A stretch of 64,000 bases of DNA. Source: [Clostridium] aerotolerans DSM 5434 (GTDB taxonomy: Bacteria; Bacillota; Clostridia; Lachnospirales; Lachnospiraceae). The position numbers and the translations under genes are program-made. This document shows positions 5,560 through 52,977 of the stretch, piece by piece (position 1 is the first letter of the stretch; each line of letters begins with the position of its first letter). Location: NCBI RefSeq assembly GCF_000687555.1, contig NZ_JHWJ01000006.1, forward strand, positions 1 through 64,000, given 5' to 3'. The notes under the pieces are model-generated. The model had not been told where the DNA came from, searched no databases, and saw only the letters and a program-made list of their open reading frames with translations.

Positions 5560-5600
5560 ACCTCCTGTCGTAATTACCATTCTACGAGAGGAGGTTTTTT
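5560..5600. terminator. Bidirectional rho-independent terminator
   Basis: ACCTCCTGTCGTA (5560-5572) pairs with TACGAGAGGAGGT (5583-5595), one mismatch, followed by TTTTT on the plus strand and preceded by AAAAAA so that it also works on the minus strand. It marks the end of transcription from the VanX side and of a lost gene on the other side. Confidence 0.7.
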
Positions 5601-6300: not shown

Positions 6301-6353
6301 GAAAGGAAAAGTATAGTGAAAATCCCTATGTGTTCATTATACAAGGTAATATT

Positions 6354-6689: not shown

Positions 6690-6690
6690 T

Positions 6691-8847: not shown

Positions 8848-9047
8848 GCAGTGATTACAAGATGTTGTGGCTTAAAGAGTATAAATGGAAATATATAAGT
8901 ATGAAAAATTGTGTCTTTGAAAATTTTACATGCTTATATATTTTTTTATTATTGTGAATTTGATTTAAACCCCATTATTTAATAGAGTTAGCTACTTCTA
9001 TAATAAACTACGAGTATTTGAACATTCTCGAGATTTTGGAGGAAGGT

Positions 9048-9206
9048 ATGGTATCAGATATATTATGTCAAATACATTACTGTAAAGGGCAAAAATTAAA
9101 GGAACCTAGAAAAGTAAAGTGCGGAGAAACAAGGACATTGCAACATCATGAATTGATTTTTGTTTGCGAGGCGAACGGCCATATCGTGATTGGAGGTAAG
9201 AGTTGA
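9048..9206 (+). CDS. Small hypothetical protein (52 aa)
   Basis: ATG 9048 follows TTGGAGGAAGG at good distance and opens a 52-residue frame, MVSDILCQIHYCKGQKLKEP through a Cys and His containing middle to GHIVIGGKS. The CxxxxxC spacing and a later Cys near residue 28 could suggest a metal-binding fold, but the surroundings are decayed and I do not recognise it. It may be a pseudogene fragment. Confidence 0.35.
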   Translation: MVSDILCQIHYCKGQKLKEPRKVKCGETRTLQHHELIFVCEANGHIVIGGKS

Positions 9207-9266
9207 GCCAGGAAAAACAAGGTCATTTAAAACCATGTCAATGCTTCTGGAGTTCTGATTCAGCAG

Positions 9267-9376
9267 AATGTAACTAATTCAGCCCAGCAACAATTAACAA
9301 TGATACAAATAATTTTTACGGCAATATTAAAGATACACAGACACAGCAGGATACGAAAGATTCCCTGCAAGACTAA
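9267..9376 (+). pseudogene. Decayed gene tail with frameshift
   Basis: Two frames in succession look like one lost protein: VTNSAQQQLT (frame starting 9267) and then NNDTNNFYGNIKDTQTQQDT ending in a stop at 9374-9376. The NNFYGN-I-x-QxQQ pattern resembles C-terminal tails of abortive-infection or phage-associated proteins, but this is a weak memory match. The frame switch near 9296 shows it is broken. Confidence 0.35.
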
Positions 9377-9401
9377 GAAGCTACATATGCTTTTAGATGC
9401 A

Positions 9402-9432
9402 AGGGGTACTATAAGAATGGTACTCCTTTTTT
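9402..9432 (+). terminator. Rho-independent terminator
   Basis: AGGGGTAC (9402-9409) pairs with GTACTCCT (9420-9427, one G-U) and is followed by TTTTTT. It ends the decayed transcription unit before it. Confidence 0.65.
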
Positions 9433-9808
9433 CTTATGTTATAGGAAAGTACATCTGACGATGTCATTAGAGATATAAAAGCCTTCTTCAAATTTGTCAT
9501 CATCAAGGTTGCCATCCTCTATAAGGAAATAATGCATGTTTAGTAAATCAAAGTCTGTCATGTTTCAAACAAATTTTTGCAGTCATTCCTTCCGGAAGAT
9601 TTACGATATAGTTTTGTCTGAGCTCCACTATAAGTTTTGGCATAAACGTAGAATCCATTTTTATCTTTATGGTAAATATAAGCCTTTGCTTTGTTGAAAG
9701 AGGCAGTCAAGGAGAGAATGGACTTCTAAAGAGAGGTGGCGGAGTTGAAGTGTCATAAACACTTATTTATTACTGACGCTAAAAACCGAAAAAAGAAAAA
9801 AATATTTA
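9433..9808. other. Decayed intergenic stretch
   Basis: No gene with start and ribosome-binding site is evident. The minus strand has two short open stretches, one of about 40 codons beginning MTDFDLLNMHYFLIEDGN (9441-9560) and one reading YIYHKDKNGFYVYAKTYSGA (around 9690), which look like coding relics but are not recognised. Confidence 0.35.
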
Positions 9809-9837
9809 TTGACATAGGAACTGGAGAAGAGTAAAAT
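9809..9837 (+). promoter_or_regulatory. Strong sigma-A promoter of the MarR-ABC operon
   Basis: TTGACA (9809-9814), 17-bp spacer, TAAAAT (9832-9837), 58 bp before the MarR start. Just downstream, at 9841-9870, GTTGATAAATGTTAACGATG contains a GTTAAC dyad that could be the MarR operator. Confidence 0.7.
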
Positions 9838-9895
9838 CATGAACGTTGATAAATGTTAACGATGTTAAGTAATTAAAAGGGGAAGAAAATTTTTG

Positions 9896-10390
9896 ATGGA
9901 TGAAAAAGAGAAATACATAAAAAAGGTAAAAACCCACCTTGCAGTTATGATGGGCAAAGGGAGAAAGGTCGATAAAATCCTGCTGTCTCAGGGGCTGACC
10001 CGTCTTGAGCTGTTTGCGATTCAGCAGATTTATGAAGCAGCAAACGGAGATAAGGAACACAAAGGTATCTATGTATCGGCACTGGCTAAAAAAATGGATA
10101 TTGTCTTATCTTCCGCATCACGGACTTTGAATTCTCTGGAAAAGCGGGGACTGATATCCAGGGAGATTGATCCTGACAACAGAAGAAATATTTGTGTCAT
10201 GCTTACGGAAAAAGGATATTTAGTAAGGAAGCTGTGTCTGGAAAAGGTGAACCTGATGTTGGGAAGAGTCGTGGATGGCATGGGAATGGAAGAAATGGAA
10301 CAGCTGATCAAATTGTGGAACCGATTTATTGATCAGATGGAAAATGCAGTGAATGATATGACGGAAGAAATAGACGAATCGACAGATTGA
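9896..10390 (+). CDS. MarR-family regulator
   Basis: 164 residues from ATG 9896; AAAGGGGAAG lies 11 bases upstream. The winged helix is typical: LTRLELFAIQQIYEA, then VSALAKKMDIVLSSASRTLN and SLEKRGLISREIDPDNRRNI, where DxRR is the wing signature. MarR proteins repress drug-exporter operons until a ligand binds. It is the first gene of an operon with two ABC exporter halves and two membrane-fusion adaptors, separated from the first ABC gene by 24 bp, so it almost certainly controls that pump. Confidence 0.9.
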   Translation: MDEKEKYIKKVKTHLAVMMGKGRKVDKILLSQGLTRLELFAIQQIYEAANGDKEHKGIYVSALAKKMDIVLSSASRTLNSLEKRGLISREIDPDNRRNICVMLTEKGYLVRKLCLEKVNLMLGRVVDGMGMEEMEQLIKLWNRFIDQMENAVNDMTEEIDESTD

Positions 10391-10414
10391 TGAGACAGAA
10401 AAGAGGGAACTGAC

Positions 10415-12145
10415 TTGAAAGTATTTTTCCGATATTTCAAACCCCATTTGATATCTTTAGCAGCGGCCATGCTTCTGCTGTTCGGGCAGGCTGCCTGTGA
10501 TTTATCGCTTCCTGATTATATGTCTGATATCGTAAACAAGGGTATCACTACGGGAGACACGATTTACATAGTCAAAGCCGGATTTCAAATGATGGGAATT
10601 GCCTTTTTAAGCGCGTTCTGCACCGTAATTGTGGGACTGATCGGTGCGAGAATGGCAGCGGGAATCTGCCGTAATCTGCGGCAGGATGTATTTACGAGAA
10701 TTGAGAGTTTTTCCAGTGCGGAGATGGAAAAGTATTCCACTTCCTCATTAATAACCAGAACCACGAATGATATTACCCAGATCCAGCAGCTGATTGTTAT
10801 GCTGGTCCGAATCGTGTTTTATGCGCCCATTCTTGGAGTCGGCGGGGTCATTCATGCCCTGGAAAAGGATAAATCCATGTCGTGGATTATAGCCTTATCC
10901 GTGGGATTGCTGTTAGTAATGATTTTTTCTATGATGATGGTGGTTATGCCCAGATTCCAGTATGTGCAGAAGTTAATCGACCGGTTAAATCTTGTAGTCA
11001 GGGAAAGCCTTGACGGAACTCTGGTCATTCGTGCATTTAATACTCAGAGATTTGAGGAAAAGCGGTTTGATAAGGTAAATGCAAGACTGACAGAAACAAA
11101 TTTATTTGTCAACAGGGTTACCTCTGGTATGATGCCTGCCATGATGCTTATCATGAATCTGACCAACTTATTAATCGTCTGGGTGGGATCAAAAGCAGTA
11201 TCCGGCTTTAAAATGGAAGTAGGAGATATGATGGCATATATGCAGTATGCCATGCAGATTATTATGGCTTTTTTAATGATGGCAATGATGTTTATCATGA
11301 TTCCAAGAGCCATTGTATCCATAAAGAGAGTGGTTGAGATCCTGACAACGGAGTCAACCATCAAGGAGCCTTTAAAAGCTGCTGTCATTTCAGAGTCCCC
11401 GAAAGGAACCGTGGAATACCGGGGAGTGTCCTTTTGCTACCCCGATGCCGACGAAGCGGTTCTTCATGATATTACGTTTACGGCACTCCCGGGACAAACA
11501 ACTGCTTTTATCGGCGCAACCGGAAGCGGAAAAAGCACACTGGTCAATTTGCTGCCCCGCTTTTACGATGTGACAGAGGGTGAAATCTTAATTGATGGCA
11601 TTGATATCAGAAAATGGCCGTTAAAGAAGCTGAGAGATATGATTGGCTTTGTGCCCCAGAAGGGAATCTTATTTTCCGGCACAATTGAGAGCAATTTAAA
11701 ATATGGTGACAGAGAGGCCGGCAAAGAAGTAGTGGAGGAAGCCGCCAAAACGGCTCAGGCGGAAGAATTCATCGATTCCAAGCCGGAGGGCTATTTAACA
11801 GAGATTTCCCAGGGCGGTCAGAACGTATCGGGCGGTCAGAAGCAGCGTCTTTCCATTGCAAGGGCACTGGTTAAAAAAGCACCGGTCAATGTATTTGATG
11901 ATAGCTTCTCCGCTCTGGATTTTAAGACAGATGCGAAGCTTCGTGCTGCGCTGAAAGACAAAACAAAAGACAGCGTTACCATTCTGGTAGCCCAGCGAAT
12001 CAGCACCATCATGAATGCGGATCAGATTATAGTTTTGGATCAGGGCAAAATTGCCGGAAGAGGGACTCATCAGGAACTGATGAAAACCTGCGAAATATAC
12101 CGGGAAATCGCGCTGTCACAGCTGAGTGAGGAGGAACTGAAATGA
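10415..12145 (+). CDS. ABC exporter half-transporter, degenerate-site subunit
   Basis: 576 residues from TTG 10415 with AGAGGG 8 bases upstream. Six TM helices (about residues 10-310) precede an ATPase domain with Walker A GATGSGKST, signature VSGGQKQR and D-loop SALD. Two catalytic positions deviate: the Walker B glutamate is Asp (NVFDDSFSALD) and the H-loop histidine is Gln (VAQRIST). In heterodimeric exporters such as BmrCD, LmrCD or TM287/288 one subunit carries exactly such a degenerate ATP site. The partner overlaps by four bases. Substrate unknown; MarR control and adaptors suggest drug efflux. Confidence 0.9.
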   Translation: MKVFFRYFKPHLISLAAAMLLLFGQAACDLSLPDYMSDIVNKGITTGDTIYIVKAGFQMMGIAFLSAFCTVIVGLIGARMAAGICRNLRQDVFTRIESFSSAEMEKYSTSSLITRTTNDITQIQQLIVMLVRIVFYAPILGVGGVIHALEKDKSMSWIIALSVGLLLVMIFSMMMVVMPRFQYVQKLIDRLNLVVRESLDGTLVIRAFNTQRFEEKRFDKVNARLTETNLFVNRVTSGMMPAMMLIMNLTNLLIVWVGSKAVSGFKMEVGDMMAYMQYAMQIIMAFLMMAMMFIMIPRAIVSIKRVVEILTTESTIKEPLKAAVISESPKGTVEYRGVSFCYPDADEAVLHDITFTALPGQTTAFIGATGSGKSTLVNLLPRFYDVTEGEILIDGIDIRKWPLKKLRDMIGFVPQKGILFSGTIESNLKYGDREAGKEVVEEAAKTAQAEEFIDSKPEGYLTEISQGGQNVSGGQKQRLSIARALVKKAPVNVFDDSFSALDFKTDAKLRAALKDKTKDSVTILVAQRISTIMNADQIIVLDQGKIAGRGTHQELMKTCEIYREIALSQLSEEELK

Positions 12146-13983
12146 GTGAAGAAAAATCCTCAGGCGGACCTATAGGGCGGGGCGGCGGACTTGGCCAGAA
12201 GACTGAAAAAGCAAAGAACTTTAAAGGCACCATGCTCCATCTTGCCGGGTATTTAAAACATTACAAAATTTCTGTTATTGTTGTAATCTTGTTTGCATGC
12301 TGTTCCTCTGTATTTTCCATTGTAGGACCAAAGGTATTAGGAAAAGCCACTACCAAGCTTTTTGAAGGCCTTATGGCATGGGCCATGGGAACTGGATTGC
12401 TTACGGATTTTCGCTATATCAGAAACCGGCTTCTGCTTTTAGTTGTTTTGTATCTTGTATCGGCTGTCTTTTCCTATCTGCAAAGTTACATTATGTCAGG
12501 GGTCAGTATGAAGATCACCTACGAACTGAGAAAAAACATATCGGAGAAGATGAACCGCCTTCCGTTAAATTATTATGATACCAGAACTCACGGGGAGATA
12601 CTTTCTAGAATTACCAACGATGTGGATACGGTAAGCCAGACATTAAATCAGAGTCTGACCCAGATGATTACATCGGTGACCACCTTAATCGGTATTATTG
12701 CTATGATGCTTTCCATCAGCATACGAATGACTCTGGTGGCAGTTTTCGTCCTCCTTGTTTCCATGGGCTTAATCGGCACGGTAGTGAAAAAGTCACAGAA
12801 ATATTTTACCCAGCAGCAGAAAAGCCTGGGGAACTTAAACGGTCACATTGAAGAAATATATTCAGGTCACAACGTCGTCCAGATTTTTAACGGTGAGAAA
12901 GAGGCCATTGAAAAATTCCGGCTGATCAACGATAAACTATATGGATCTGCGTGGAAATCCCAGTTTTTATCAGGGATGATGATGCCAATTATGTCTTTCG
13001 TGGGCAATCTCGGATTTGTATGTGTTTGTCTGTTAGGAGGATATTTAACGGTGAAAAAGGCGATTGAGATCGGTGACGTTCAGGCATTTATCCAGTACAT
13101 GAGATCATTCATGCAGCCAATCTCCCAGATCGCCAACGTTTCCAATACTCTGCAGTCAACAGCTGCAGCGGCAGAGCGTGTATTTGAATTCTTAGACGAA
13201 GAGGATGAAGTCAGGGAGACAGAAAGTCCCATTGTATTATCTGAGGTTTATGGAAATGTGGAATTTAAAAATGTCTGTTTTGGTTATCAGCCGGATACCA
13301 TGATTATCAATCATTTTTCATCCAATGTGGAGGCAGGGCAGACGGTTGCGATTGTAGGTCCTACAGGAGCTGGAAAAACTACCATAGTAAAGCTTCTGAT
13401 GCGTTTTTATGAGCTTAATTCCGGACAGATCCTGATTGATGGGCATGACAGTCTTACATTTACAAGAAGGGATTTACGTGCTATGTTCGGCATGGTGCTT
13501 CAGGATACCTGGCTTTATAACGCCACGGTTATGGATAACATCCGCTACGGTAATTTTGATAAGACAGATGAAGAAGTGATAGCGGCGGCAAAAGCGGCTC
13601 ATTGTGATGAATTTATACGAACTCTGCCGGGAGGTTATCATATGGTGATTAATGAAGAATCCAGTAACTTATCCCAGGGACAGAAACAGCTGTTAACAAT
13701 TGCAAGAACCATTCTGGCAGATCCCAAAATCCTGATTCTTGATGAAGCAACCAGTTCTATTGATACACGGACCGAGGTCTTTATTCAGAGAGCCATGGAT
13801 AAATTAATGAAAAACAGAACCAGCTTTGTCATCGCCCATCGTCTTTCCACCATCCGGGACGCGGATATGATTCTGGTCATGAAGGATGGCGATATCATTG
13901 AACAGGGAAATCACGAAACATTGCTTGAAAAGAAAGGATTCTATTCCGATCTCTATCACAGCCAGTTTGCAGAACAATCATAG
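12142..13983 (+). CDS. ABC exporter half-transporter, catalytic subunit
   Basis: 613 residues, start overlapping the previous stop (ATGA) with GAGGAACTG upstream. An extra Gly-rich, charged N-terminus of about 30 residues precedes six TM helices. The ATPase domain has Walker A GPTGAGKTT, canonical Walker B glutamate ILILDEATSSID and H-loop histidine VIAHRLSTI, but a variant signature LSQGQKQ. In a head-to-tail dimer, this variant signature faces the degenerate Walker B of the partner, so one site is consistently weak and the other (this Walker B with VSGGQ of the partner) is competent. This is the expected architecture of BmrCD-like heterodimers. Confidence 0.9.
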   Translation: MSEEKSSGGPIGRGGGLGQKTEKAKNFKGTMLHLAGYLKHYKISVIVVILFACCSSVFSIVGPKVLGKATTKLFEGLMAWAMGTGLLTDFRYIRNRLLLLVVLYLVSAVFSYLQSYIMSGVSMKITYELRKNISEKMNRLPLNYYDTRTHGEILSRITNDVDTVSQTLNQSLTQMITSVTTLIGIIAMMLSISIRMTLVAVFVLLVSMGLIGTVVKKSQKYFTQQQKSLGNLNGHIEEIYSGHNVVQIFNGEKEAIEKFRLINDKLYGSAWKSQFLSGMMMPIMSFVGNLGFVCVCLLGGYLTVKKAIEIGDVQAFIQYMRSFMQPISQIANVSNTLQSTAAAAERVFEFLDEEDEVRETESPIVLSEVYGNVEFKNVCFGYQPDTMIINHFSSNVEAGQTVAIVGPTGAGKTTIVKLLMRFYELNSGQILIDGHDSLTFTRRDLRAMFGMVLQDTWLYNATVMDNIRYGNFDKTDEEVIAAAKAAHCDEFIRTLPGGYHMVINEESSNLSQGQKQLLTIARTILADPKILILDEATSSIDTRTEVFIQRAMDKLMKNRTSFVIAHRLSTIRDADMILVMKDGDIIEQGNHETLLEKKGFYSDLYHSQFAEQS

Positions 13984-42234: not shown

Positions 42235-42466
42235 AACGACTATAAAGCTTGTTTCAGGTAAACACTTAACAGGTTCTTTCCAGAATGGATTAAAAGTGCA
42301 ACGCATTGGAACGTGAAATATGTGGACGATAGAATGAAAATAAGATATTAAGGTTAGAATCTTATGAAAATCTTAGTAATTCCTCATGCAAGAATTTATA
42401 AATAGAAAGGCATCCTTTGATACAATAATAAAGTACCTTAATATGCCTGAAAGGAGGACACCAGTT

Positions 42467-43162
42467 ATGAATGATATCATTCTTGTAGTAGATGACGAAC
42501 AGGATATTGCAGATTTAATAGAAGTCTATTTACAGAACGAAAACTATACCGTATTTAAGTATTATTCATCGAAGGAAGCACTTGCCTGCATAGAAGGTAC
42601 GGAGCTTGATCTTGCTATTTTGGATATTATGATGCCGGATATAAACGGATTTGAGCTTTGCCGCAAAATTCGCGAACATCATACTTTTCCGGTTATTATG
42701 CTGACTGCGAAAGATGAGGAAACAGATAAAATAACAGGACTAACTTTAGGGGCCGATGATTATGTAACGAAACCATTTCGCCCTCTCGAATTAATTGCCA
42801 GAGTGAAAGCGCAGCTACGCCGTTACAAAAAATACAATCCCGGGAAAGAAGAATTGGATGCAAGTCCAATTTTATGTTATTCAGGTCTGGAAATTAACAC
42901 GAAAACACATGAATGCCTCATTAATGAAAAACCTATTTCGCTTACACCAACGGAATTCTCCATACTCTGTATCCTACTCCAGAACAAGGGAACGGTTGTA
43001 AGCGCGGAAAAGCTGTTCCATGAGATATGGCAAGATGAGTATTACAGTAAAAGCAATAATACCATTACCGTTCATATCCGGCATTTACGGGAAAAGATAG
43101 GGGATACTGCAGAGGAACCCAAATACATCAAGACAATATGGGGAGTAGGGTATAAAATTTAG
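42467..43162 (+). CDS. VanR-like OmpR-family response regulator (pair 1)
   Basis: 231 residues from ATG 42467 behind AAGGAGG. Receiver domain with acidic pocket DD9-10, phospho-acceptor D53 in LAILDIMMPDINGF, Thr/Lys switch in MLTAKDEETDK and TKPFRPLELIARVKAQLRRY. The C-terminal winged helix (about 135-231) reads LTPTEFSILCILLQNKGTVV and ends IKTIWGVGYKI. Closest group from memory: VanR of glycopeptide resistance loci. The cognate kinase follows after an interposed VanZ gene. A paralogue at 47276 has the same layout. Confidence 0.92.
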   Translation: MNDIILVVDDEQDIADLIEVYLQNENYTVFKYYSSKEALACIEGTELDLAILDIMMPDINGFELCRKIREHHTFPVIMLTAKDEETDKITGLTLGADDYVTKPFRPLELIARVKAQLRRYKKYNPGKEELDASPILCYSGLEINTKTHECLINEKPISLTPTEFSILCILLQNKGTVVSAEKLFHEIWQDEYYSKSNNTITVHIRHLREKIGDTAEEPKYIKTIWGVGYKI

Positions 43163-43736: not shown

Positions 43737-44813
43737 ATGAAAAATAATATAGAAAAGAAAATGCGGGGCAAGCTTTTCGTTACCTTAATCCTTTATACGT
43801 TGACTGGCTATATACTGACGGTATTATTAGATTATGGATTCGGAAAATTTTCCAATTCTTTTTTTCAGTGGTTGCAGCTAAGGATTGAAGTTGTCTATTT
43901 TCTGTATCTGATCGTTGGATTTTGCTGTCTATTCTATCATTACTGGAAAAAACCATGGTTATATTTTGAGGAGGTTGTCAATGCCACTAAAACCGTTTAT
44001 CAACTAGATGACAGCACAATTGAATTGTCTGAACCCCTTAAAGATGTGGAAAAGCAGATGAATCAAATTAAAATGGCTGTTCTTCTCAGCCAGCAGGCTG
44101 TGAAAGAGGCAGAAAATAAAAAGAATGAATTGGTGATGTACCTGGCCCATGATATTCGTACGCCGCTTACCTCTATAATCGGTTATTTGAGCTTGCTTTA
44201 TGAAGCACCTGACATGCCGGTAGAACAAAAAGCGAAATATGTTGGGATTACATTGAAGAAAGCCACCAGGCTTGAAAAGCTAATTAACGAATTCTTTGAA
44301 ATAGCACGGTATAATACACAGCAGATCAAGCTGGAGAAAGCAAATGTGGATTTATATTATATGCTTGTTCAATTGATTGACGAGTTTTATCCTGTCTTAT
44401 CGGCTAAAGGAAATTTCGCCATTCTCCACGCAGAAGAAACGCTGACGGTTTACGGTGACTCTGAAAAATTGGCCCGTGTGTTTAATAATATCCTCAAAAA
44501 TGCCGCTGCATACAGCAGCCCGGATTCAGAAATTCTCATTACGGCAGAACAGCAGCAGGATAAGGTTATTATCACTTTTACTAACCATGGGAATACAATT
44601 CCCCATGATCAGCTGTCTGCAATCTTTGAAAAATTTAACCGTTTGGATGATGCCCGTAAATCAGATACTGGCGGTGCGGGACTTGGTTTATCCATTGCAG
44701 AGGAAATTGTTCGTTTACATGGTGGGAAAATTACCGCGGATAGTGAAGATAATATGGTTACCTTTACCGTATCATTACCTGCTCATTTTAGTGAAAAATC
44801 AATGGGTTGTTAG
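43737..44813 (+). CDS. VanS-like sensor histidine kinase (pair 1)
   Basis: 358 residues, ATG behind AGAGGTAT. Two TM helices (about 12-32 and 50-70) with a loop of only about 18 residues, so little extracellular sensor. A HAMP-like linker leads to the H box LVMYLAHDIRTPLTSIIGYL (H138), then N box FNNILKNAAAYS, F box IFEKFNRLDDARKSDT and G box GGAGLGLSIAEEI. VanS-type kinases phosphorylate VanR and control cell-wall resistance genes. A strong hairpin (44854) separates it from the ABC genes. Confidence 0.92.
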   Translation: MKNNIEKKMRGKLFVTLILYTLTGYILTVLLDYGFGKFSNSFFQWLQLRIEVVYFLYLIVGFCCLFYHYWKKPWLYFEEVVNATKTVYQLDDSTIELSEPLKDVEKQMNQIKMAVLLSQQAVKEAENKKNELVMYLAHDIRTPLTSIIGYLSLLYEAPDMPVEQKAKYVGITLKKATRLEKLINEFFEIARYNTQQIKLEKANVDLYYMLVQLIDEFYPVLSAKGNFAILHAEETLTVYGDSEKLARVFNNILKNAAAYSSPDSEILITAEQQQDKVIITFTNHGNTIPHDQLSAIFEKFNRLDDARKSDTGGAGLGLSIAEEIVRLHGGKITADSEDNMVTFTVSLPAHFSEKSMGC

Positions 44814-44853
44814 GATTTTCTTAGGAAATTATCCTCTTCATCTTAAAGTATCA

Positions 44854-44892
44854 GACGTCCTTGTTCTGTAAAATAAAACAGAACAAGGACGT
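44854..44892 (+). terminator. Strong hairpin between the VanS-like gene and the ABC genes
   Basis: ACGTCCTTGTTCTGT (44854-44868) pairs perfectly with ACAGAACAAGGACGT (44878-44892). The T tract is poor (TTGGCGTTTT), so it may only attenuate read-through into the ABC operon. Confidence 0.6.
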
Positions 44893-44931
44893 TTGGCGTT
44901 TTAATCGAAATAAAAATTGAGGAGAAAAGAC

Positions 44932-45819
44932 ATGGAACTGACAATTACAAACCTTAGTAAACAGTTTAAGGATAAAACGGCAGTTGATGATGTTAGCTTA
45001 AGTCTTACACCAGGAGTTTGGGGACTGCTTGGAGCCAACGGAGCCGGGAAGACTACACTAATGCGGATGATTGCAGATATTTTGAAGCCAACCAGCGGGA
45101 AAATTCTTTTTGATGGCAAGGATATTCATGCAATGGGAGAAGAATACAGAAATTTATTTGGCTTTTTACCCCAGGATTTTGGATTTTTTCAAGATTTTAC
45201 AGTAAAGGATTATTTGGAGTATGTAGCTGCGTTAAAGGGCGTACCTGTAAGGGAAACAAGAAATAAGATTGACAATCTGCTGCATACACTGACCTTGACT
45301 GATGTAAGAGACAAGAAAATCATAAAGTTATCCGGTGGAATGAAACGGCGGGTGGGAATTGCACAGGCGATGCTGAATGATCCTAAAATACTGATTATGG
45401 ATGAACCGACAGCAGGACTTGATCCCGGTGAGCGGGTTCGTTTTCGAAATCTTGTTTCGGAATTTTCCCACGGAAGAATCGTTTTAATTTCAACCCATAT
45501 CGTATCCGATATTGAGTATATCTCTACGAAAAATGCAATTATGAAGGCAGGTAAAATTGTTGATGTAGGTACAACGGATGAATTGGTAAAGCAGGTGAAA
45601 GGAAAGGTCTGGACTTGTGTTGTACCTGCCGAAAAGATAACCTTGTATGAAATGCAGCTACGGATTATTAACCAGCGAAGTGAAGGTAACAACCAGGTGT
45701 CAATCCGTTATCTATCAGATGAGGGCAAGACCAGTAACTCCGTACTGGCGTCTCCGCGTTTGGAAGATTTATATTTATGGTTATTTCCGCAAGAGGAAAT
45801 CAGTGAGAGGGGGATATAA
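44932..45819 (+). CDS. ABC transporter ATP-binding protein (BcrA-like)
   Basis: 295 residues from ATG 44932 behind GAGGAGA. Walker A GANGAGKTT, Q-loop LPQDFGF, signature LSGGMKRR, Walker B ILIMDEPTAGLDPGE and H-loop LISTHIVSD. LSGGMKRR with a C-terminal extension of about 85 residues is typical for ABC-2 type drug, lantibiotic and bacitracin transporters. It is followed after 3 bp by its permease. Placement behind the VanRZS-like genes and before a RiPP locus fits peptide immunity or envelope-stress defence. Confidence 0.92.
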   Translation: MELTITNLSKQFKDKTAVDDVSLSLTPGVWGLLGANGAGKTTLMRMIADILKPTSGKILFDGKDIHAMGEEYRNLFGFLPQDFGFFQDFTVKDYLEYVAALKGVPVRETRNKIDNLLHTLTLTDVRDKKIIKLSGGMKRRVGIAQAMLNDPKILIMDEPTAGLDPGERVRFRNLVSEFSHGRIVLISTHIVSDIEYISTKNAIMKAGKIVDVGTTDELVKQVKGKVWTCVVPAEKITLYEMQLRIINQRSEGNNQVSIRYLSDEGKTSNSVLASPRLEDLYLWLFPQEEISERGI

Positions 45820-45822
45820 TCT

Positions 45823-47067
45823 ATGCGCATTTATTGCCTGGAAATAAAACGTGTGCTTAAGTCACGCCGTGTAATTATTTTATTAGCCATTGCACTACTA
45901 ATGTCTATGGTAATGGCCTGGCTTCCTGTAATCTTTGAGGATATCAATCAATATGACGATAGCGGCAACAAAGTAGCCGAATTAAATGGTCTGTCTGCAA
46001 TTACCTATAAAAAATCGTTGCGTCAAACCAATAACGGAGAAGTCACCCCGGAAAAAATTAAGGAGGCTTTAATAATCTATCAAAATACAGTTTCACAGTA
46101 TGGAGAGAACAGCCTATACAGCGGTGAGTTTCCAAAGGACCTTTATATGAAAAAGGTTTTTCCCGTGGAATCGCTTTTAGGAAGACTGCCGGAAGCGTTC
46201 TCAAATCCAAAGACTGGTCAGGCAGCAAGTCTAATGGACATAGACCCGGACAAAACAGACAATTATTATGAACAAGTAGAACAGCACTTAAAGGATATCA
46301 TGAAGATGGAGCATAAGGATAATCCAATTGCACAGGAGCAGGCCCTGAAAAAATTTGCCCAGGTAACAAAACCATTTCAGTTTTATGCTGGGTATTCAAG
46401 AGATGCTTTTGATTATATTATGCTTTATATTTTCCTTCTTGTTATTCTATGTACAGCAGCGGTCACACCTACGTTCTCCAATGAATATCAAACCGGATCC
46501 GACAGCATTTTACGCTGTACCAAGCACGGGCGCAGCAGATTGGGAGTGGTGAAGGTATTTGCTGCAGTGACAGTTTTTTCAATCGCATTTATCCTATGTA
46601 TTTTACTGCACTTATTAATCTCTAACATGGCATTCGGACCAGAAAGTATGAAAACATCTATGCAGATGTTGTTTTCTGTCATTAGCCTTCCTGCACTTAA
46701 TTTAGGCCAGCTTCAAGCTGTTTTGGCAATTGGAGGTCTTGTTTCCTTGTTGGCAACCATTAGTTTTACATTATTTCTATCAGCAAGATTCAAGGATTCT
46801 ATTTCCGTTATTTTGAGTGCAATTGTAATATGTCTGCTCCCGATGTTTATGTATTCAGCTGGATCCGGTTGGCTTGGTTTTATATTGCCGTCAGGAGGAG
46901 TCGGTATGCAAAATAGCTTGCTTTATCAGCTGACTAACTTTAATTATCTGCATATTGGTTCCATAAGCATTTGGTCCCCTTATGTTATAATGGCGGCGGC
47001 ATTAATCGAAATACCATTATTTCTTTTTCTTGCTGTACGCACATATTGCAACCATCAGGTTGATTGA
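45823..47067 (+). CDS. ABC-2 type permease
   Basis: 414 residues, GAGGGGG upstream of ATG 45823. TM1 (about 14-34), then a large extracytoplasmic region of about 160 residues (FEDINQYDDSGNKVAELNGL and so on), then a bundle of five TM helices from about 190 to 410 (YIMLYIFLLVILCTAAVTPT and TFSNEYQTGSDSILRCTKHG, the coupling loop). This layout is that of single-subunit ABC-2 exporters acting as homodimers with the ATPase of the gene before. Terminator follows. Confidence 0.88.
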   Translation: MRIYCLEIKRVLKSRRVIILLAIALLMSMVMAWLPVIFEDINQYDDSGNKVAELNGLSAITYKKSLRQTNNGEVTPEKIKEALIIYQNTVSQYGENSLYSGEFPKDLYMKKVFPVESLLGRLPEAFSNPKTGQAASLMDIDPDKTDNYYEQVEQHLKDIMKMEHKDNPIAQEQALKKFAQVTKPFQFYAGYSRDAFDYIMLYIFLLVILCTAAVTPTFSNEYQTGSDSILRCTKHGRSRLGVVKVFAAVTVFSIAFILCILLHLLISNMAFGPESMKTSMQMLFSVISLPALNLGQLQAVLAIGGLVSLLATISFTLFLSARFKDSISVILSAIVICLLPMFMYSAGSGWLGFILPSGGVGMQNSLLYQLTNFNYLHIGSISIWSPYVIMAAALIEIPLFLFLAVRTYCNHQVD

Positions 47068-47094
47068 TGAATTAATTTATTTTAAACTTTCATG

Positions 47095-47151
47095 CCCTTA
47101 TAATAAGTCACAGAGTAGGTAACTGTGATTTATTATAAGGGTATTTTTTTG
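47095..47151 (+). terminator. Rho-independent terminator of the ABC operon
   Basis: CCCTTATAATAA then TCACAG (47095-47113) pairs with CTGTGA then TTATTATAAGGG (47123-47141), followed by seven T residues after one TA. Confidence 0.85.
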
Positions 47152-47202: not shown

Positions 47203-47233
47203 AAGTTACTTTATTAAAGTTACATGCTATAAT
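47203..47233 (+). promoter_or_regulatory. Promoter region of the second VanRS/RiPP unit
   Basis: TATAAT (47228-47233) with extended TG (47225-47226). Upstream, AAGTTAC occurs as direct repeats at 47203-47209 and 47217-47223 in place of a good -35; this is what one expects from an OmpR/VanR-activated promoter, so autoactivation is possible. Confidence 0.5.
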
Positions 47234-47275
47234 GTTAGATAAAATGTTGTGGTTTGTAATAGGGGGGAATTAATT

Positions 47276-47968
47276 ATGTCTAATAAGATTTTAGTTGTCG
47301 AAGATGAAAAAAGCATAGTTGAATTCATTGAATTATACTTGGAGAATGAGGATTTTGAGGTTTACAAATGCTTTACGGCTGAAGCTGCTTTAAAAATTAT
47401 TGATACAGTGGAATTTGATCTTGTGCTTTTGGATATTATGCTGCCAGGAAAGGATGGCTTCTTTTTATGCAAAAAAATCAGAGAAGTATATCGATATCCA
47501 ATTATAATGCTGACTGCCAAAAATGATGAAGTCAGTAAAATTAATGGGTTAACATTAGGTGCAGACGACTATATTACAAAACCTTTTCTGCCATTGGAAA
47601 TGATTGCAAGAGTGAAAGCACAGCTTAGAAGATATAAAAAATATAATCAGACAGATGCAGAAGATTATTCTGGCGTTTTATCATACCTAGGACTAGAGCT
47701 CAACATAAAAACAAGAGAGTGCAGTTTAAAGGGAAAACAGCTTAGCCTGACGCCAAGTGAATATGATATATTACGATTGCTGTTGGAACATAAAGGGGAA
47801 GTAGTTAGCTCCGATGAGCTTTTTAGACTGATTTGGCATGATGATTATTATACAAAAAATAACACCATTTCTGTTCACGTGCGTCATCTGCGTGAAAAGT
47901 TAGGGGACAAGGCGGGGAACCCCAAATACATTAAAACGGTATGGGGGGTCGGCTATAAAATTGTGTAG
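47276..47968 (+). CDS. VanR-like response regulator (pair 2, RiPP locus)
   Basis: 230 residues from ATG 47276 behind GGGGGGAA. The receiver has D53 in LVLLDIMLPGKDGF and TKPFLPLEMIARVKAQLRRY; the winged helix reads LTPSEYDILRLLLEHKGEVV and ends IKTVWGVGYKIV. Clearly a paralogue of the regulator at 42467, with the linker RRYKKYN in common. The kinase gene overlaps its end by 8 bp. It is the first gene of the unit that leads into the radical SAM gene and is its probable activator. Confidence 0.92.
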   Translation: MSNKILVVEDEKSIVEFIELYLENEDFEVYKCFTAEAALKIIDTVEFDLVLLDIMLPGKDGFFLCKKIREVYRYPIIMLTAKNDEVSKINGLTLGADDYITKPFLPLEMIARVKAQLRRYKKYNQTDAEDYSGVLSYLGLELNIKTRECSLKGKQLSLTPSEYDILRLLLEHKGEVVSSDELFRLIWHDDYYTKNNTISVHVRHLREKLGDKAGNPKYIKTVWGVGYKIV

Positions 47969-49028
47969 GGAAAATCAAAAGCGTATTAAATGCAGTAAAA
48001 AGCTGGTGTGCCATCTTTTTGTTAGTCTATTTCTTTATTTTGTAGTTGGTTGGATTTTAAGAGTTATTTTCGATTATTATGCAAGCAAAGTCCAAACATC
48101 GATAGTTCAATGGTTAGCTCTTCGAGTTGAATTAATTCAGTTCCTGTATATATTTATAGGTTTTATCAGTATATTTATGTATTATTGGTATAAGCCTTGG
48201 AGATATCTAAATGAAATAATTAATGCTGCAGAGATTTTATTTAAAAAAGATGATTGTGTAATTAAATTATCTCAACCATTAAAGGAAATAGAAATACAAA
48301 TGAATCAGATTAAGATGTCGGTTTTAATGGCAGATCAGTCAATGAAGGTTGCCGAGAGCAAAAAAAGTGAATTAGTTGCATATATTGCTCATGATATCCG
48401 AACACCATTAACCTCTATTATTGGGTATTTAAGTCTGATCAGAGATATGCCGGATTTATCAGTAAGTAAAAGACAAGAATACGTAGAAATATTACTTGAT
48501 AAGGCTATGCATCTAGAGCAAATGGTAAATGAGTTTTTCGAGATCACTCAATATAATACTCAAAAAATTGAAATTAATAAACAAGAAGTAGATTTATATT
48601 ATTTGTTTATACAACTGACAGATGAGTTCTATCCAATGCTCGTGGAAAATGGTAATACTCTAAAATTAGAGATAAACGAAAATTTGTATTGCAGTATAGA
48701 TCCCGAGAAAATGTCTAGAGCATTTAGCAATTTATTGAAAAATGCAATAAGTTATAGTTATTCATGGACTGAGATATTTATATCGGCAGAAATCAAAAAC
48801 GATACGCTTGTTATCGTATTTAAAAATGAGGGTGAAACTTTATCAGAAGTGGAACTATCCCGTATTTTCGAAAAGTTTAACAGGCTGGACAAATCAAGAA
48901 CATCTGTCTCTAACGGAGCTGGTCTGGGTTTGTCAATAGCAAAAGAAATTATACAGTTGCATTGTGGTGATATTGTTGCACAGAGTGAAGATGAAACAAT
49001 TACATTTATAATTACAATACCAATTTAG
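47961..49028 (+). CDS. VanS-like sensor histidine kinase (pair 2, RiPP locus)
   Basis: 355 residues from TTG 47961, overlapping the regulator gene by 8 bp, chosen because the N-terminus then aligns with the kinase at 43737. Two TM helices (about 18-38 and 57-76) with a short loop, H box LVAYIAHDIRTPLTSIIGYL (H144), N box FSNLLKNAISYS, F box IFEKFNRLDKSRTSVS and G box GAGLGLSIAKEI. Probably senses a peptide or cell-wall damage at the membrane and controls the maturase-precursor-exporter genes downstream. Confidence 0.9.
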   Translation: MCRENQKRIKCSKKLVCHLFVSLFLYFVVGWILRVIFDYYASKVQTSIVQWLALRVELIQFLYIFIGFISIFMYYWYKPWRYLNEIINAAEILFKKDDCVIKLSQPLKEIEIQMNQIKMSVLMADQSMKVAESKKSELVAYIAHDIRTPLTSIIGYLSLIRDMPDLSVSKRQEYVEILLDKAMHLEQMVNEFFEITQYNTQKIEINKQEVDLYYLFIQLTDEFYPMLVENGNTLKLEINENLYCSIDPEKMSRAFSNLLKNAISYSYSWTEIFISAEIKNDTLVIVFKNEGETLSEVELSRIFEKFNRLDKSRTSVSNGAGLGLSIAKEIIQLHCGDIVAQSEDETITFIITIPI

Positions 49029-49071
49029 TGAATGATTATATATTATAAATAAATTAGCAAATCGTCTGTGT

Positions 49072-49101
49072 TTGTATAAAAAGATTGTAATTATTATACA
49101 A
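49072..49101 (+). promoter_or_regulatory. Inverted repeat before the radical SAM gene
   Basis: TTGTATAA (49072-49079) and TTATACAA (49094-49101) with a 14-base gap, in the 261-bp region between kinase and maturase genes. It may be an operator or a small stem in a leader. Confidence 0.4.
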
Positions 49102-49191
49102 TAAATACTTCATTGATCCATGAGTTTTGTAACATAATCCATTAATTTCTTAATCAATTCTCATGACTTTTAATATAGAATCTTAAAATAG

Positions 49192-49239
49192 AAATCTTTT
49201 TTGTTTGATATCATAATACCAGACAAGAAAGATTTTTTC
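49192..49239 (+). terminator. Terminator or attenuator in the leader of the radical SAM gene
   Basis: AAATCTTTTTTGT (49192-49204) pairs with ACAAGAAAGATTT (49223-49235), one G-U, followed by TTTTCT. Only about 50 bp separate it from the maturase start and no promoter is seen in that interval, so transcripts reaching the maturase must pass it. Confidence 0.6.
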
Positions 49240-49289
49240 TTTGAGTAACTTTCATCTAAGAAGAGATTAACAATGGAAGGAGAATTGAT

Positions 49290-50843
49290 ATGGTCGCTGT
49301 TAACAATAGTATGAAAGATCTTTATGATGAACTTTGTTCCAGTGGTAGACCGGGAAGACTGGGAAAAGTTTTTAAGACGGAGAGAAATTATTATTTTCTG
49401 GATACCGGAACAGGTAAGGTTGCATGCTTGAAAGAAAATGTATATAAAGTTTTAAAATGTTTCATGCAAAGCGATAGCTACGAAGATTTAAAAGAGCTTG
49501 ACCTGAATGAGGACGAAATAGAAAGCGCGATTCATGAAATTAAAGAAGCAGTGAAGGCAGAGCATATATTATCCGCACCAGTTCTAAAGACATTAACCGG
49601 TTCAGCAGTAACTCACTTAAAGGAAACATTAGAAAGTGGAGTGGAAAATGTCACACTAGAGGTGACTGAAAAATGTAATTTGCGATGTAAGTACTGTATT
49701 TATAATCCTTCACATAAAGAGTATCGGGAATTTGGGCATCGAAATATGTCTTGGGATACTGCTAAAAAAGCAATAGACTTATTAATTAATCATTCGAAAG
49801 ATGCAGAGCAGGTCCATATTGGTTTTTATGGTGGAGAACCTTTATTAAATTTCGGATTGATTAAACAAGCCGTTGAATATGCAAGAAGAAATTTTAAAGA
49901 GATTACGTTTGCAATGACTACCAATGCAGCTTTGGTAACTGATGAAATTGCGGAGTATCTATTACAAAATGACTTTGATATTATTGTCAGCTTAGATGGT
50001 CCTGAAGATCTTCATGATGCGAATCGAATCACTGTAGAGGGAACGGGAAGCTTTCGTAAAACAGTTGCAGGTGCTAAGATTTTATTAAATACACAAAACA
50101 GGTTGGGAAAGCAATCAAAGATATCATTTAATATGGTGGTCTCTGGCCCGGATTATGATGAAAACTATAATAAAATACAACAGTTTTTAGAGCATGAAGA
50201 TTGGATTCCTAAAGGTATTATGGTCTTAACAGCGTCTGTGGATCATGGTCCTAAAGATAGTGAGTATTTTATTCCACAAAGCATTCAGGAGCGTGAATTT
50301 ACAGATGGATCATACGATCCCTTAAATGAATGGGACTTGAATTACCGGAGAGAAATGAAAGATAGCAACGAAAAAAAGGGGCTTTTCTCAGATGGTGTTA
50401 TGGATAAAGGAATGCTCATTATACATAAACGTCTATTATCAGAGTATCCAGTTAAGGCTTATGGAATGAACGGTTGTTGTGTTCCAGGACAAAGAAGAAT
50501 ATATGTAACGGTAGACGGTAAATTTCTTCTCTGTGAAAAGGTGGGAAATATTCCGGACATTGGAAATGTTGATACTGGGTTTGATTTAGAGGGTATTCAG
50601 AAATTGTATGTTGATGATTTTATAGATAATGCGAAAGAATACTGCAAAGACTGTTGGGCGGTTAATCTTTGCACCATGTGTTATGTGAATTGCTATGATC
50701 AAAAAGGCCCGCATTTCTCATATAGGCACAATTCCTGTAGAAACGAAAGGTTGTATTTGGAAAACAATCTTGTTCGTTATCATATAGCGCTGGAGGAAAA
50801 TCCTGAAGAACTCATGGAGTATAACGAGAAGGGGTTTCGTTAG
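49290..50843 (+). CDS. Radical SAM/SPASM peptide maturase (CcpM-like)
   Basis: 517 residues behind GGAAGGAG. An N-terminal region of 115 residues (RYYF-type start ERNYYFLDTGTGKVACLKEN) probably binds the precursor leader. The radical SAM cluster motif is C129-NLR-C133-KY-C136, followed by IGFYGGEPLLNF and VSLDGPEDLHDANR. The C-terminal SPASM part (about 396-500) has CCVPGQRR, LLCEKVG, CKDCWAVNLCTMC and NSCRNE for auxiliary 4Fe-4S clusters. This is the architecture of enzymes that cross-link Cys sulfur to carbon in sactipeptides and ranthipeptides. The next gene encodes a Cys-rich precursor. Confidence 0.93.
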   Translation: MVAVNNSMKDLYDELCSSGRPGRLGKVFKTERNYYFLDTGTGKVACLKENVYKVLKCFMQSDSYEDLKELDLNEDEIESAIHEIKEAVKAEHILSAPVLKTLTGSAVTHLKETLESGVENVTLEVTEKCNLRCKYCIYNPSHKEYREFGHRNMSWDTAKKAIDLLINHSKDAEQVHIGFYGGEPLLNFGLIKQAVEYARRNFKEITFAMTTNAALVTDEIAEYLLQNDFDIIVSLDGPEDLHDANRITVEGTGSFRKTVAGAKILLNTQNRLGKQSKISFNMVVSGPDYDENYNKIQQFLEHEDWIPKGIMVLTASVDHGPKDSEYFIPQSIQEREFTDGSYDPLNEWDLNYRREMKDSNEKKGLFSDGVMDKGMLIIHKRLLSEYPVKAYGMNGCCVPGQRRIYVTVDGKFLLCEKVGNIPDIGNVDTGFDLEGIQKLYVDDFIDNAKEYCKDCWAVNLCTMCYVNCYDQKGPHFSYRHNSCRNERLYLENNLVRYHIALEENPEELMEYNEKGFR

Positions 50844-50905
50844 TTAGTCAAATACGTTTGTTTTACATAAATGTATTTAGAAAAAGATGGAAAGGAGATT
50901 TAACT

Positions 50906-51103
50906 ATGAAATTCATCAATCCAATTGGGAGAAACCCAGGAAGTGGTATTCAGCCTCAGGCATGTACATGCTCTAGCGGTTACGCTGGATACAGAGGCAA
51001 TGATGATGGCTGCGTTCACTGTGGTTGTGGCTGTAGTGGCAGTGGCGAATATCGTACAGGAAATAGAGTAAAATCTGTTACTACCGTGCGTTCCTCATCA
51101 TAA
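50906..51103 (+). CDS. Cys-rich RiPP precursor peptide (65 aa)
   Basis: 65 residues from ATG 50906 behind AAAGGAG. The start MKFINPIGRN is a leader motif known from clostridial Cys-rich peptides matured by radical SAM enzymes; cysteines stand at 20, 22, 36, 39, 41 and 43 in ACTC and CVHCGCGC, with Gly, Ser and Tyr between them. The tail (residues 44-65) is Ser/Thr/Arg rich. Family names such as CA_C0660-type or Clo7bot-type bacteriocin precursor come from memory and need a search. Six cysteines would permit several thioether links. Flanked by maturase and exporter. Confidence 0.9.
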   Translation: MKFINPIGRNPGSGIQPQACTCSSGYAGYRGNDDGCVHCGCGCSGSGEYRTGNRVKSVTTVRSSS

Positions 51104-51123
51104 TTAACTTGCCGTTAAAGAAA

Positions 51124-51160
51124 GTAGCATCTGAGAATATCTCTCAGATGCTACCTCTTT
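51124..51160 (+). terminator. Hairpin between precursor and exporter genes
   Basis: GTAGCATCTGAGA (51124-51136) pairs perfectly with TCTCAGATGCTAC (51142-51154), 5-base loop, followed by a mixed CTCTTTCT tract. It probably gives partial termination, so that the precursor is made in excess over the exporter. Confidence 0.65.
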
Positions 51161-51195
51161 CTAACTAAATCAATATACATTATCTGAGGATTATA

Positions 51196-52977
51196 ATGAA
51201 TAAATTTAAAAGCAATATAAAATTATTTATATACACGATCCGGTTGCTATGTAAGATAAATAAAAAAATTTTTGCTTTTTCAGTCCTGCTTTCTATCATA
51301 AATGGAGTGTTTCCTATTGCTACACTTTTATTAAGTCAAAGAATTATTAATGAGATACAATTACTGAAAAGACCATTCAGTATTTTGTTGCAATTAATAA
51401 TCATATATTTTGCAATATCTGGTATTGGAACTATATTGCAAAATATAAATGGATATGTATTAAGTAAGCTTAATAACATATTACAATATGGCATCAATAA
51501 AATTATTATTGAGAAGTGTTCAAAATTATCCTTAGAAACGCTTGAAAGAACAGAAACGTATGACACGATAGCACGTCTGGAGCAAGATATCGCGACGAAG
51601 CCTTATCAAACGTTACAAGCTATCATGAGTATATTTTCTAATGGGGTATCTGCTGTATTAGCTTCTGTCATAATAATCAGCTGGAATGTGTGGGTGGAAA
51701 TTATCTTGCTGATTATCTCCATATCAATGTTTATGGGTGAGATTTTTATAGGTAATAAAGAATTTATTATGAAATATAAAAGAAGTGATAAGGAAAGAGA
51801 ATCCTGGTACTACTCCTATCTTCTAACTCATGACACCGCCTTTAAAGAGATAAAATCTTATGGGTTAAAAAATCACTTTATAAATAAGTATATAGAGCTG
51901 AGTAATATCTTTATCTCCCAATCAAATCAAATTGAGAAATTTAAAACGATCCTAAATATATCAATTGCACTGATTCAAGACGTGTTCAGTCTGGTAACGA
52001 TGATTATGGCAATTCATGCCGCTTACATTGGCTCTATCATGATTGGTACAGCTATGTCATTTTTAAATGCAATTAACATGGTCCAGGGATCTACAAATGC
52101 TGTAGCCTCAGGAATTTATACTATATATAATTCAAATCTGTATATCAGATTACTGGAAGAGTTCTTGGATGATTCTGACGGAGAGGAAGAGTTAGACAGC
52201 GATACGAAATTAAACGTAGAAAGAATTTCTTCACTGGAGCTATCTGGAGTCGGATATGATTATCCGGAATTTAGAGACGTCTTAAGGAATGTTACGTTAA
52301 GACTCGATATTGGAGAGCAAATCGCCATTGTTGGTAAAAATGGATCAGGCAAGAGTACACTTTTTAAAATCATATGTGGGCTTTATAAAACCTCAAGAGG
52401 GAAATTTTTTGTCAATGGCCAGGATATAAATGAATGTAATGTTGAATCGTATAGAAAAAGAACCTCAGTATTATTTCAAGATTTCTTAAAATTTGAGGGG
52501 TCATTAGAAGAGAATATCGTGATTGGAGATATCAATCATCAGGCTAATAGGGAAGAAATACATATAGCATTGGATAAAGCAAATGTTAATTTCTTAAAAA
52601 GCAATGGTTACTATGATCTGGCTAAAACATTAGGAAATTGGTTTGATAATGGAAGTCAGCTTTCGGGAGGGCAATGGCAAAAGATAGCTTTAGCTAGAGC
52701 TTATTACAGGAAAGCAGATGTCATTTTACTAGATGAACCGAGCTCAGCTCTGGATGCAATGGCTGAAATGAAAATATTTAAAAGCTTTTTTGAAATTAGC
52801 AAAGATAAAATTGGTATATATATCACACATAGAGTAAAAATAGCAAAAAACGCCACTAAGATAGTTGTAATAGAAGGTGGTGAAATCGTTGGAATTGGTA
52901 ATCATGAAAGATTAATGCAAGAATGCGCCGTTTATAGAGATATGTATTGTGAAGAGCTAAAAGATATTAATGAATAA
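51196..52977 (+). CDS. ABC exporter of the RiPP locus
   Basis: 593 residues; no strong ribosome-binding site (TGAGGATTATA before ATG). Six TM helices (about 22-320) and an ATPase domain with Walker A GKNGSGKST, signature LSGGQWQK, Walker B VILLDEPSSALD and H-loop YITHRVKIA. No C39 peptidase domain, so the leader must be removed by another protease. The TM part resembles lantibiotic-type exporters (half transporter, homodimer). Its place behind the precursor makes it the presumed exporter of the mature peptide. Confidence 0.9.
   Translation: MNKFKSNIKLFIYTIRLLCKINKKIFAFSVLLSIINGVFPIATLLLSQRIINEIQLLKRPFSILLQLIIIYFAISGIGTILQNINGYVLSKLNNILQYGINKIIIEKCSKLSLETLERTETYDTIARLEQDIATKPYQTLQAIMSIFSNGVSAVLASVIIISWNVWVEIILLIISISMFMGEIFIGNKEFIMKYKRSDKERESWYYSYLLTHDTAFKEIKSYGLKNHFINKYIELSNIFISQSNQIEKFKTILNISIALIQDVFSLVTMIMAIHAAYIGSIMIGTAMSFLNAINMVQGSTNAVASGIYTIYNSNLYIRLLEEFLDDSDGEEELDSDTKLNVERISSLELSGVGYDYPEFRDVLRNVTLRLDIGEQIAIVGKNGSGKSTLFKIICGLYKTSRGKFFVNGQDINECNVESYRKRTSVLFQDFLKFEGSLEENIVIGDINHQANREEIHIALDKANVNFLKSNGYYDLAKTLGNWFDNGSQLSGGQWQKIALARAYYRKADVILLDEPSSALDAMAEMKIFKSFFEISKDKIGIYITHRVKIAKNATKIVVIEGGEIVGIGNHERLMQECAVYRDMYCEELKDINE

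Follow-up and report, generated by a model that had tools for sequence, protein, structure and literature searches.

A probable RumC-like sactipeptide cluster with two VanRS-like regulator pairs in [Clostridium] aerotolerans

The DNA examined here, referred to as the window, is a stretch of 64,000 nucleotides from [Clostridium] aerotolerans DSM 5434 (contig NZ_JHWJ01000006.1, positions 1 to 64,000 of the forward strand). Between 42467 and 52977 it carries a gene cluster in the order RR1, VanZ, HK1, ABC-2 ATPase and permease, RR2, HK2, radical SAM (S-adenosylmethionine) maturase, precursor, and ABC (ATP-binding cassette) exporter, with RR denoting response regulators and HK histidine kinases (Table 1). 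A preliminary description had placed at 47203..52977 a locus for a ribosomally synthesized and post-translationally modified peptide (RiPP), with a response regulator, an overlapping kinase, a CxxxCxxC/SPASM enzyme, a 65-residue peptide with six cysteines, and an ABC half-transporter. All of these features are present in the sequence, and their coordinates and Cys positions were confirmed. The interval, however, omits RR1, VanZ, HK1, and the ABC-2 pair, and hence the existence of two paralogous regulatory systems: the cluster begins ~5 kb upstream of 47203, on the same strand. Because genes of these kinds adjoin the maturase in relatives, we regard the upstream genes as part of the same cluster.

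The precursor scores 105.2 bits against TIGR04067, well over the curated cut-off of 45, with residues 1 to 58 of 65 aligned to positions 1 to 59 of the 59-position model. NCBIfam names this family "Apre_1838 family putative sactipeptide bacteriocin," a label whose sactipeptide part is itself a prediction. The cysteines lie at positions 20, 22, 36, 39, 41, and 43, and all six are invariant in the 14 precursors aligned, as are M1, P6, G8, and N53; this alignment leaves out the two plasmid loci L028 and L029 introduced below, and four of its members score below the TIGR04067 cut-off. A weak match to the CA_C0660 family model (NF035954) covers residues 1 to 51 (22.5 bits, cut-off 60), and the RumC family model is absent from the matches of the precursor at E-values up to 1. 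A search of solved structures with the precursor gave a single match, to a repeat protein, which we judged not meaningful, and phage records searched with it gave none. The maturase gene ends 62 bases upstream of the precursor gene. The margin of the precursor over the family threshold (105 bits versus 45) and a gene order seen again in other genera show that the locus is more than a chance assembly of genes.

TIGR04067 is rare: with the genome of the window itself included every time, genomes over the cut-off number 2 of 391 in the class, 1 of 299 in the family, 4 of 25 in the genus, and 1 of 398 in the phylum. We examined 16 precursor-bearing relatives, comprising L008, L009, L011 to L021 (among them L012, Lacrimispora algidixylanolytica, and L013, L. 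amygdalina), L024, and the plasmids L028 and L029. The family cut-off is exceeded in 12 of the 16 (L008, L011 to L016, L019, L021, L024, L028, and L029), leaving L009, L017, L018, and L020 below it. L008 and L022 are the same place on one contig and are counted once, as L008; L010 and L023 (weak matches with no Apre_1838-type precursor beside a maturase) and L025 to L027 (27 to 28% matches) do not enter the counts. The counts are not independent, as L014, L015, L016, and L028 are mutually close and L008 is close to L021, and the genes missing from L009, which lies near a contig end, say little.

The gene order is conserved across genera. ABC-2 genes stand beside the cluster in 13 of the 16 relatives (not in L009, L018, or L020), and VanZ homologues occur in L012, L014 to L016, L024, and L028, with none found in L011 or L013. 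A VanRS-like pair adjoins the cluster in 11 of the 12 relatives over the cut-off, in several genera, the exception being the Sarcina plasmid L029; of the four relatives below the cut-off, L017 has a distant pair (32% and 22% identity) and the others have none. A kinase or two-component system is also printed in the two Anaerococcus clusters of Murphy et al. 2011 (PMC3132745). The view that a VanRS-type sensor is an uncommon controller for such clusters, taken in the preliminary description, is not supported by these findings.

The maturase is matched best by the RumMC model (NF035951; 457 bits, cut-off 720), with lower scores against the models for CcpM (TIGR04068; 311 bits, cut-off 500), the lachnocin maturase (202 bits, cut-off 550), and the ranthipeptide enzymes PapB (161 bits, cut-off 340) and SCIFF (148 bits, cut-off 425). 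The radical SAM cysteines C129, C133, and C136 and the SPASM-region cysteines C396, C397, C415, C452, C455, C461, C464, and C483 are invariant in all 15 maturases aligned. In a tree of 28 enzymes, these 15 maturases and four RumMC-like proteins form one clade (support 98/99) with a partly open internal backbone, outside which fall the CcpM enzymes (six, from eight loci) and SCIFF enzymes (three, from six loci). The RumMC-like set leaves out L035, which is the same gene as that of L009, and the broken pair L037/L039; enzymes over the RumMC cut-off were found in none of 250 genomes, so the tree contains none. The SCIFF maturase of the genome itself is a separate gene (774 bits). Over part of its length, the maturase also matches the solved structure 5wgg and other radical SAM entries, and five plasmid records contain a match to it, three of them covering >80% of the query; two of the five were examined.

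Together with the conserved cysteines, these scores bear out a RiPP locus with a SPASM-type maturase, a Cys-rich precursor, and an exporter. Between the two product classes that had been proposed, sactipeptide and ranthipeptide, both the model scores and the tree favor the sactipeptide side, and we infer a RumMC-like function for the enzyme without assigning it to the RumMC family. A ranthipeptide or other cross-link, from sulfur to a beta or gamma carbon or between two carbons, in an otherwise unchanged cluster, seems unlikely. The maturase is related to SPASM enzymes that form other kinds of link, the lachnocin, PapB, and SCIFF models also match it, and no curated maturase cut-off is reached, but the RumMC score is more than twice that of any ranthipeptide model, the enzyme groups with RumMC-like proteins in the tree, and the name of the precursor family, although also a prediction, is sactipeptide-like.

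It is highly improbable that the six cysteines bind metal or form disulfides while the maturase alters another residue and makes no thioethers. The CxC and CxxCxCxC groups would suit metal binding, and the literature matches listed include no description of an Apre_1838 family product, although papers using a different name for it could have escaped the search. Even so, each of the 14 aligned precursors is adjoined by a same-group maturase, and RumC likewise has two Cys groups, its four cysteines all being thioether-linked (PMC6779426 and PMC8172795).

Ruminococcin C (RumC1-5 with RumMC1/2, from Ruminococcus gnavus E1) thus shares with the window a RumMC-like enzyme and two Cys groups, but the window precursor has six cysteines rather than four, and the cluster has one precursor and one maturase. 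According to the same two papers, RumC is active solely after trypsin removes the leader, and putative proteases are reportedly encoded in its operon (PMC6779426); for the gnavucin D cluster, no leader peptidase gene was found (PMC13239113). In the window, Pfam revealed no leader protease among the ten cluster and neighboring proteins scanned, a set that leaves out RR1 and the remainder of the genome, and none is shared among the large open reading frames (ORFs) around ten relatives, compared by eye and not by profile. The preliminary description had likewise called the leader protease missing and supposed it to be elsewhere. The basic residue that directly precedes the first Cys in RumC is absent from the window precursor, which has Gln at 18 and its nearest upstream basic residue at R9, although Arg occurs two to three residues before the first Cys in the precursors of L009, L018, L020, and L024. 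A RumC-style cut would thus not be general in the family.

The two regulator pairs of the window are paralogous: RR1 and RR2 share 60.9% identity over 230 aligned residues, and HK1 and HK2 share 51.9% over 349. VanR and VanS models were run on RR2, HK1, and HK2, and all three proteins stay below the cut-offs, with 335 bits for RR2 against VanR (NF033117, cut-off 350) and 375.4 and 337.5 bits for HK1 and HK2 against VanS (NF033091, cut-off 400). The paralogous second pair is found in the window and in three carriers of the same genus (L011 to L013) and in none of the 13 other relatives. Herbinix L019 also has a second regulator-kinase pair, but it is more distant (34% and 31% identity) and lies together with an ABC ATPase gene on the opposite strand (4370-6778); yet another distant regulator pair occurs in L013. 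The one kinase of L024 falls with HK1 (95/97) rather than HK2 in the kinase tree; the second pair may therefore be older than the split from L024 and have been lost there, or it may have been acquired from another source. The tree of the regulators has too little resolution to help decide. A VanRS-like pair is the norm for the family, and it is the doubled paralogous pair that is the particular feature of this cluster.

The Apre_1838 clusters of Anaerococcus prevotii (plasmid pAPRE01) and A. tetradius have the same Cys spacing in a precursor over the family cut-off and likewise contain RR, HK, ABC-2, maturase, precursor, and exporter genes as well as VanZ. Unlike these clusters, the window and its three same-genus relatives have a second, paralogous RR-HK pair that separates the ABC-2 genes from the maturase gene. 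In addition, the VanZ gene of the window and of L012 is placed between RR1 and HK1, and the window lacks the second ABC-2 permease gene after the precursor. Apre_1837 appears as the radical SAM enzyme of a putative sactipeptide cluster in a BMC Genomics 2014 article (PMC4289311). The precursor cluster is thus a further member of a family already named in the databases, and its regulatory variant is the unusual part.

Upstream of RR1 lies a direct repeat with an 11-bp period, TCTTATGAAAA/TCTTAGTAATT, in a block conserved in all five loci compared (window, L011 to L013, and L024). The repeats before RR1 and before the maturase gene both have the form TCT-N8-TCT; the one before the ABC-2 pair reads TGT-N8-TCT in the window and TCT-N8-TCT in L024. 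A half-site model was trained solely on the RR1-upstream repeats of the five loci and then applied elsewhere, the best score at each site being compared with 1000 dinucleotide shuffles. Before the ABC-2 ATPase gene, the score was reached by 0 of 1000 shuffles in every one of the five loci. Before the maturase gene, 11, 5, 6, and 3 shuffles per 1000 reached it (window, L011, L012, and L013, respectively), and a repeat test that included 30 bases of the preceding gene, as the ABC-2 site of the window also requires, gave 6, 2, 5, and 4 per 1000. In Herbinix L019, a different genus, the test with the 30 preceding bases found a 17.2-bit site before the maturase (0 of 1000), the top match of that locus; the first test, starting after the kinase stop codon, had found nothing there (254 of 1000). 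The model gave no site before RR2 (995, 972, 214, and 783 per 1000) and, in the window, none before the precursor or exporter genes. By eye, a different repeat, AGTTAC-N8-AGTTAC, precedes RR2 in the window, L011, and L012 and is poor in L013. Six fixed bases by themselves recur often by chance, so the argument depends on the longer repeat and on how well it is conserved. A strict pattern derived from the two strong sites matched just those two in 4.73 Mb at up to two mismatches, with no match for the reversed control.

Repeats of this TCT type, spaced by 11 bp, precede both structural and immunity genes in the window, as in a NisRK-type regulon. The NisR-controlled promoters of the nisin structural and immunity genes carry TCT-N8-TCT repeats (PMC7178509 and PMC9958725). 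The form of the repeats therefore supports a NisRK-like mode of working; it does not make the regulators NisRK, because their nearest models are VanR and VanS, with cut-offs above the scores obtained, and the loops of the kinases are short. Nisin further differs in its lanthipeptide chemistry, set against short-loop VanS-like kinases and two regulator pairs in the window, and nisRK is constitutive in L. lactis (PMC7178509), whereas RR1 carries a box.

VanRS-ABC modules are common in clostridia, and the RR1-VanZ-HK1-ABC-2 and RR2-HK2 groups could in principle be general modules for sensing and resisting cell-wall antibiotics that lie beside the RiPP genes by chance. VanR and VanS are indeed the best models (335 and 337.5 bits), making VanRS of glycopeptide resistance the closest named two-component family, and VanZ is present. 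We nevertheless consider a chance neighborhood distinctly improbable: the VanR and VanS cut-offs are not reached, the pair recurs beside the precursor in the 11 of 12 relatives described above, and RR1, the ABC-2 pair, and the maturase gene are all three preceded by an operator-like repeat. Neither a vancomycin-type ligase gene nor a resistance operon was noticed beside the regulator genes, by eye and with no search run, and a vancomycin-resistance locus was dropped as a candidate. A lone D-Ala-D-Ala dipeptidase-like gene lies at 4284-5147 (PF01427, 75.6 bits; VanX model, 49.8 bits against a cut-off of 320); it is the single M15 dipeptidase found in the genome and is situated ~37 kb from the VanRS-like genes.

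We consider it probable that the locus is a RumC-like sactipeptide bacteriocin cluster of the Apre_1838 (TIGR04067) family with self-regulated production and immunity. Under this interpretation, the RumMC-like maturase would link the six cysteines, arranged as CxC ... CxxCxCxC, through thioethers to the alpha carbons of other residues, with N53 and residues 23-35 as conceivable acceptors. The product would be a nested double hairpin resembling ruminococcin C, whose second half has two cysteines fewer. Export, with the short NPxGR leader still attached, would fall to the ABC half-transporter that lacks a peptidase domain; an outside protease would trim the leader, and the ABC-2 pair, perhaps with VanZ, would protect the producer. 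The RR1/HK1 system would sense the peptide, or membrane stress caused by it, and, working like NisRK, would use the TCT-N8-TCT repeats to activate the operon to which it belongs, the ABC-2 pair, and the operon of the maturase and precursor. RR2/HK2 would provide a paralogous second input, seen here in this lineage alone. Chemistry, signal, and killing activity are thus what we infer from sequence and likeness to described systems.

Several observations weigh against this interpretation. The maturase falls short of the RumMC and CcpM cut-offs, and the Pfam SPASM model gives it 14.2 bits, below a cut-off of 21.5. The gap between the two predicted transmembrane helices of the kinases is only 16 and 18 residues, so direct binding of an extracellular peptide is less obvious than for NisK. 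On the Sarcina plasmid L029, ABC-2 genes are present and no two-component system was found beside the cluster. Among the operator-like repeats, the maturase box is the weaker one, modest evidence by itself and carried by its conservation, and it was not found in L024 (525 of 1000 shuffles). An intragenic match at 17780, in a LysR-like ORF, outranks it, and a looser pattern found two sites in the 64 kb (before RR1 and before the maturase), with two or more sites in 11 of 100 shuffled windows. Weak matches (26, 18, 10, and 19 per 1000) precede the ABC-2 genes of L014, L015, L016, and L028; in these loci, the maturase gene overlaps the permease gene. L021 has no site at its RR, maturase, or ABC-2 genes in either test. 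Finally, L012 has a match over the ribosome-binding site of the exporter (0 of 1000) that is not in the window; the exporter-upstream matches of L013 and L011 stand at 14 and 50 per 1000.

The two pairs might also divide the regulon, with the strong repeat serving RR1/HK1 for control of its own genes and those of the immunity transporter, and a diverged repeat serving RR2/HK2 for control of the maturase-precursor operon, so that immunity would be armed and killing released by separate signals. This arrangement is suggested by the position of RR2-HK2 between the permease and the maturase, which has its own box; in the single-pair loci L014 to L016, L024, and L028, permease and maturase genes are neighbors. 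The diverged maturase repeat takes the form TCTTAATYAATTCTYWT in all four two-system loci and is absent before the maturase of the one-system locus L024. Herbinix L019, on the other hand, combines one VanRS-like pair with a maturase box, which therefore does not need the second pair, and we regard a split regulon as possible but doubtful.

Table 1. Features of the cluster in the window.
Feature	Position	Strand	Remarks
Operator-like 11-bp direct repeat TCTTATGAAAA/TCTTAGTAATT before RR1	42360..42381	+	kept in 5/5 loci
Weaker third half-site after the RR1-upstream repeat	extends to 42392	+	
RR1, VanR-like OmpR-family response regulator	42467..43162	+	DIMMP and TKPF motifs; orthologues in L011-L013, L024
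VanZ-like membrane protein, 171 aa	43197..43712	+	Pfam PF04892, 78 bits (cut-off 30.1)
HK1, VanS-like histidine kinase	43737..44813	+	transmembrane segments 13-31 and 48-66; HDIRTPL at 138
Operator-like direct repeat TGTTAGGATTT/TCTTAGGAAAT before ABC-2 pair	44808..44829	+	starts within last HK1 codons; 18.4 bits
Conserved hairpin, HK1 to ABC-2 ATPase gene (attenuator or terminator)	44851..44896	+	
ABC-2 type transporter ATPase, likely immunity	44932..45819	+	Pfam ABC_tran, 119 bits; homologues in relatives
ABC-2 type transporter permease, likely immunity	45823..47067	+	PF12679, 28.2 bits (cut-off 27.2); six predicted transmembrane segments
RR2, VanR-like response regulator	47276..47968	+	NF033117, 335 bits
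HK2, VanS-like histidine kinase	47961..49028	+	TTG start, overlaps RR2 end; NF033091, 337.5 bits
Operator-like direct repeat TCTTAATCAAT/TCTCATGACTT before maturase gene	49148..49169	+	14.6 bits
Radical SAM/SPASM maturase, RumMC-like, 517 aa	49290..50843	+	CNLRCKYC at 129-136; Cys-rich C-terminus
Precursor peptide, 65 aa, six Cys	50906..51103	+	TIGR04067 match; ribosome-binding-site-like stretch
Terminator-like hairpin, precursor to exporter	51124..51154	+	13 pairs, T-rich tail
ABC half-transporter, likely exporter of modified precursor	51196..52977	+	ABC_membrane, 28.7 bits (cut-off 28); ABC_tran; P-loop relatives

The exporter has Walker A, LSGGQ, and Walker B motifs, and a Pfam scan found no C39 or other peptidase domain in it. 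For the hairpin between HK1 and the ABC-2 genes, 14 stem pairs were tested in five loci, with 95.7% of cells paired; five of the 14 pairs changed on both sides, a number reached by 2 of 500 shuffles and set against 0 to 1 in slid controls. These paired changes, seen in five related sequences, support a genuine hairpin that is probably a terminator or an attenuator. As it lies between the repeat and the ABC-2 genes, transcripts begun at the repeat would cross it, making it a possible attenuator. By eye, a third hairpin follows the permease gene at about 47094-47145.

Some relatives show further features around the cluster. The L028 cluster lies on plasmid pAPRE01 of Anaerococcus prevotii, typed as conjugative, and very similar copies occur in Ezakiella and two other Anaerococcus (L014 to L016), with a relaxase gene near the cluster in L014; from this distribution, the cluster appears to move between genera. 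On the Sarcina sp. JB2 plasmid NZ_CP051756.1 (L029 1-9935, L059), which looks like a phage-plasmid, an Apre_1838-type cluster directly follows phage tail and baseplate genes. At 85-3316 of L024, upstream of its single-pair cluster, an AgrB-like gene (PF04647, 121.5 bits) lies with kinase- and regulator-like ORFs identified by eye, a possible link to quorum sensing. Fontibacillus panacisegetis L020 carries, at 9001-12513, two tandem maturases (~40% identity to that of the window) followed by one seven-Cys precursor.

The window thus offers a compact, complete cluster together with a precise hypothesis for the positions at which its regulators bind. If the two pairs do split immunity from production, the cluster would provide a clean example from nature of an antimicrobial peptide under two-input control.

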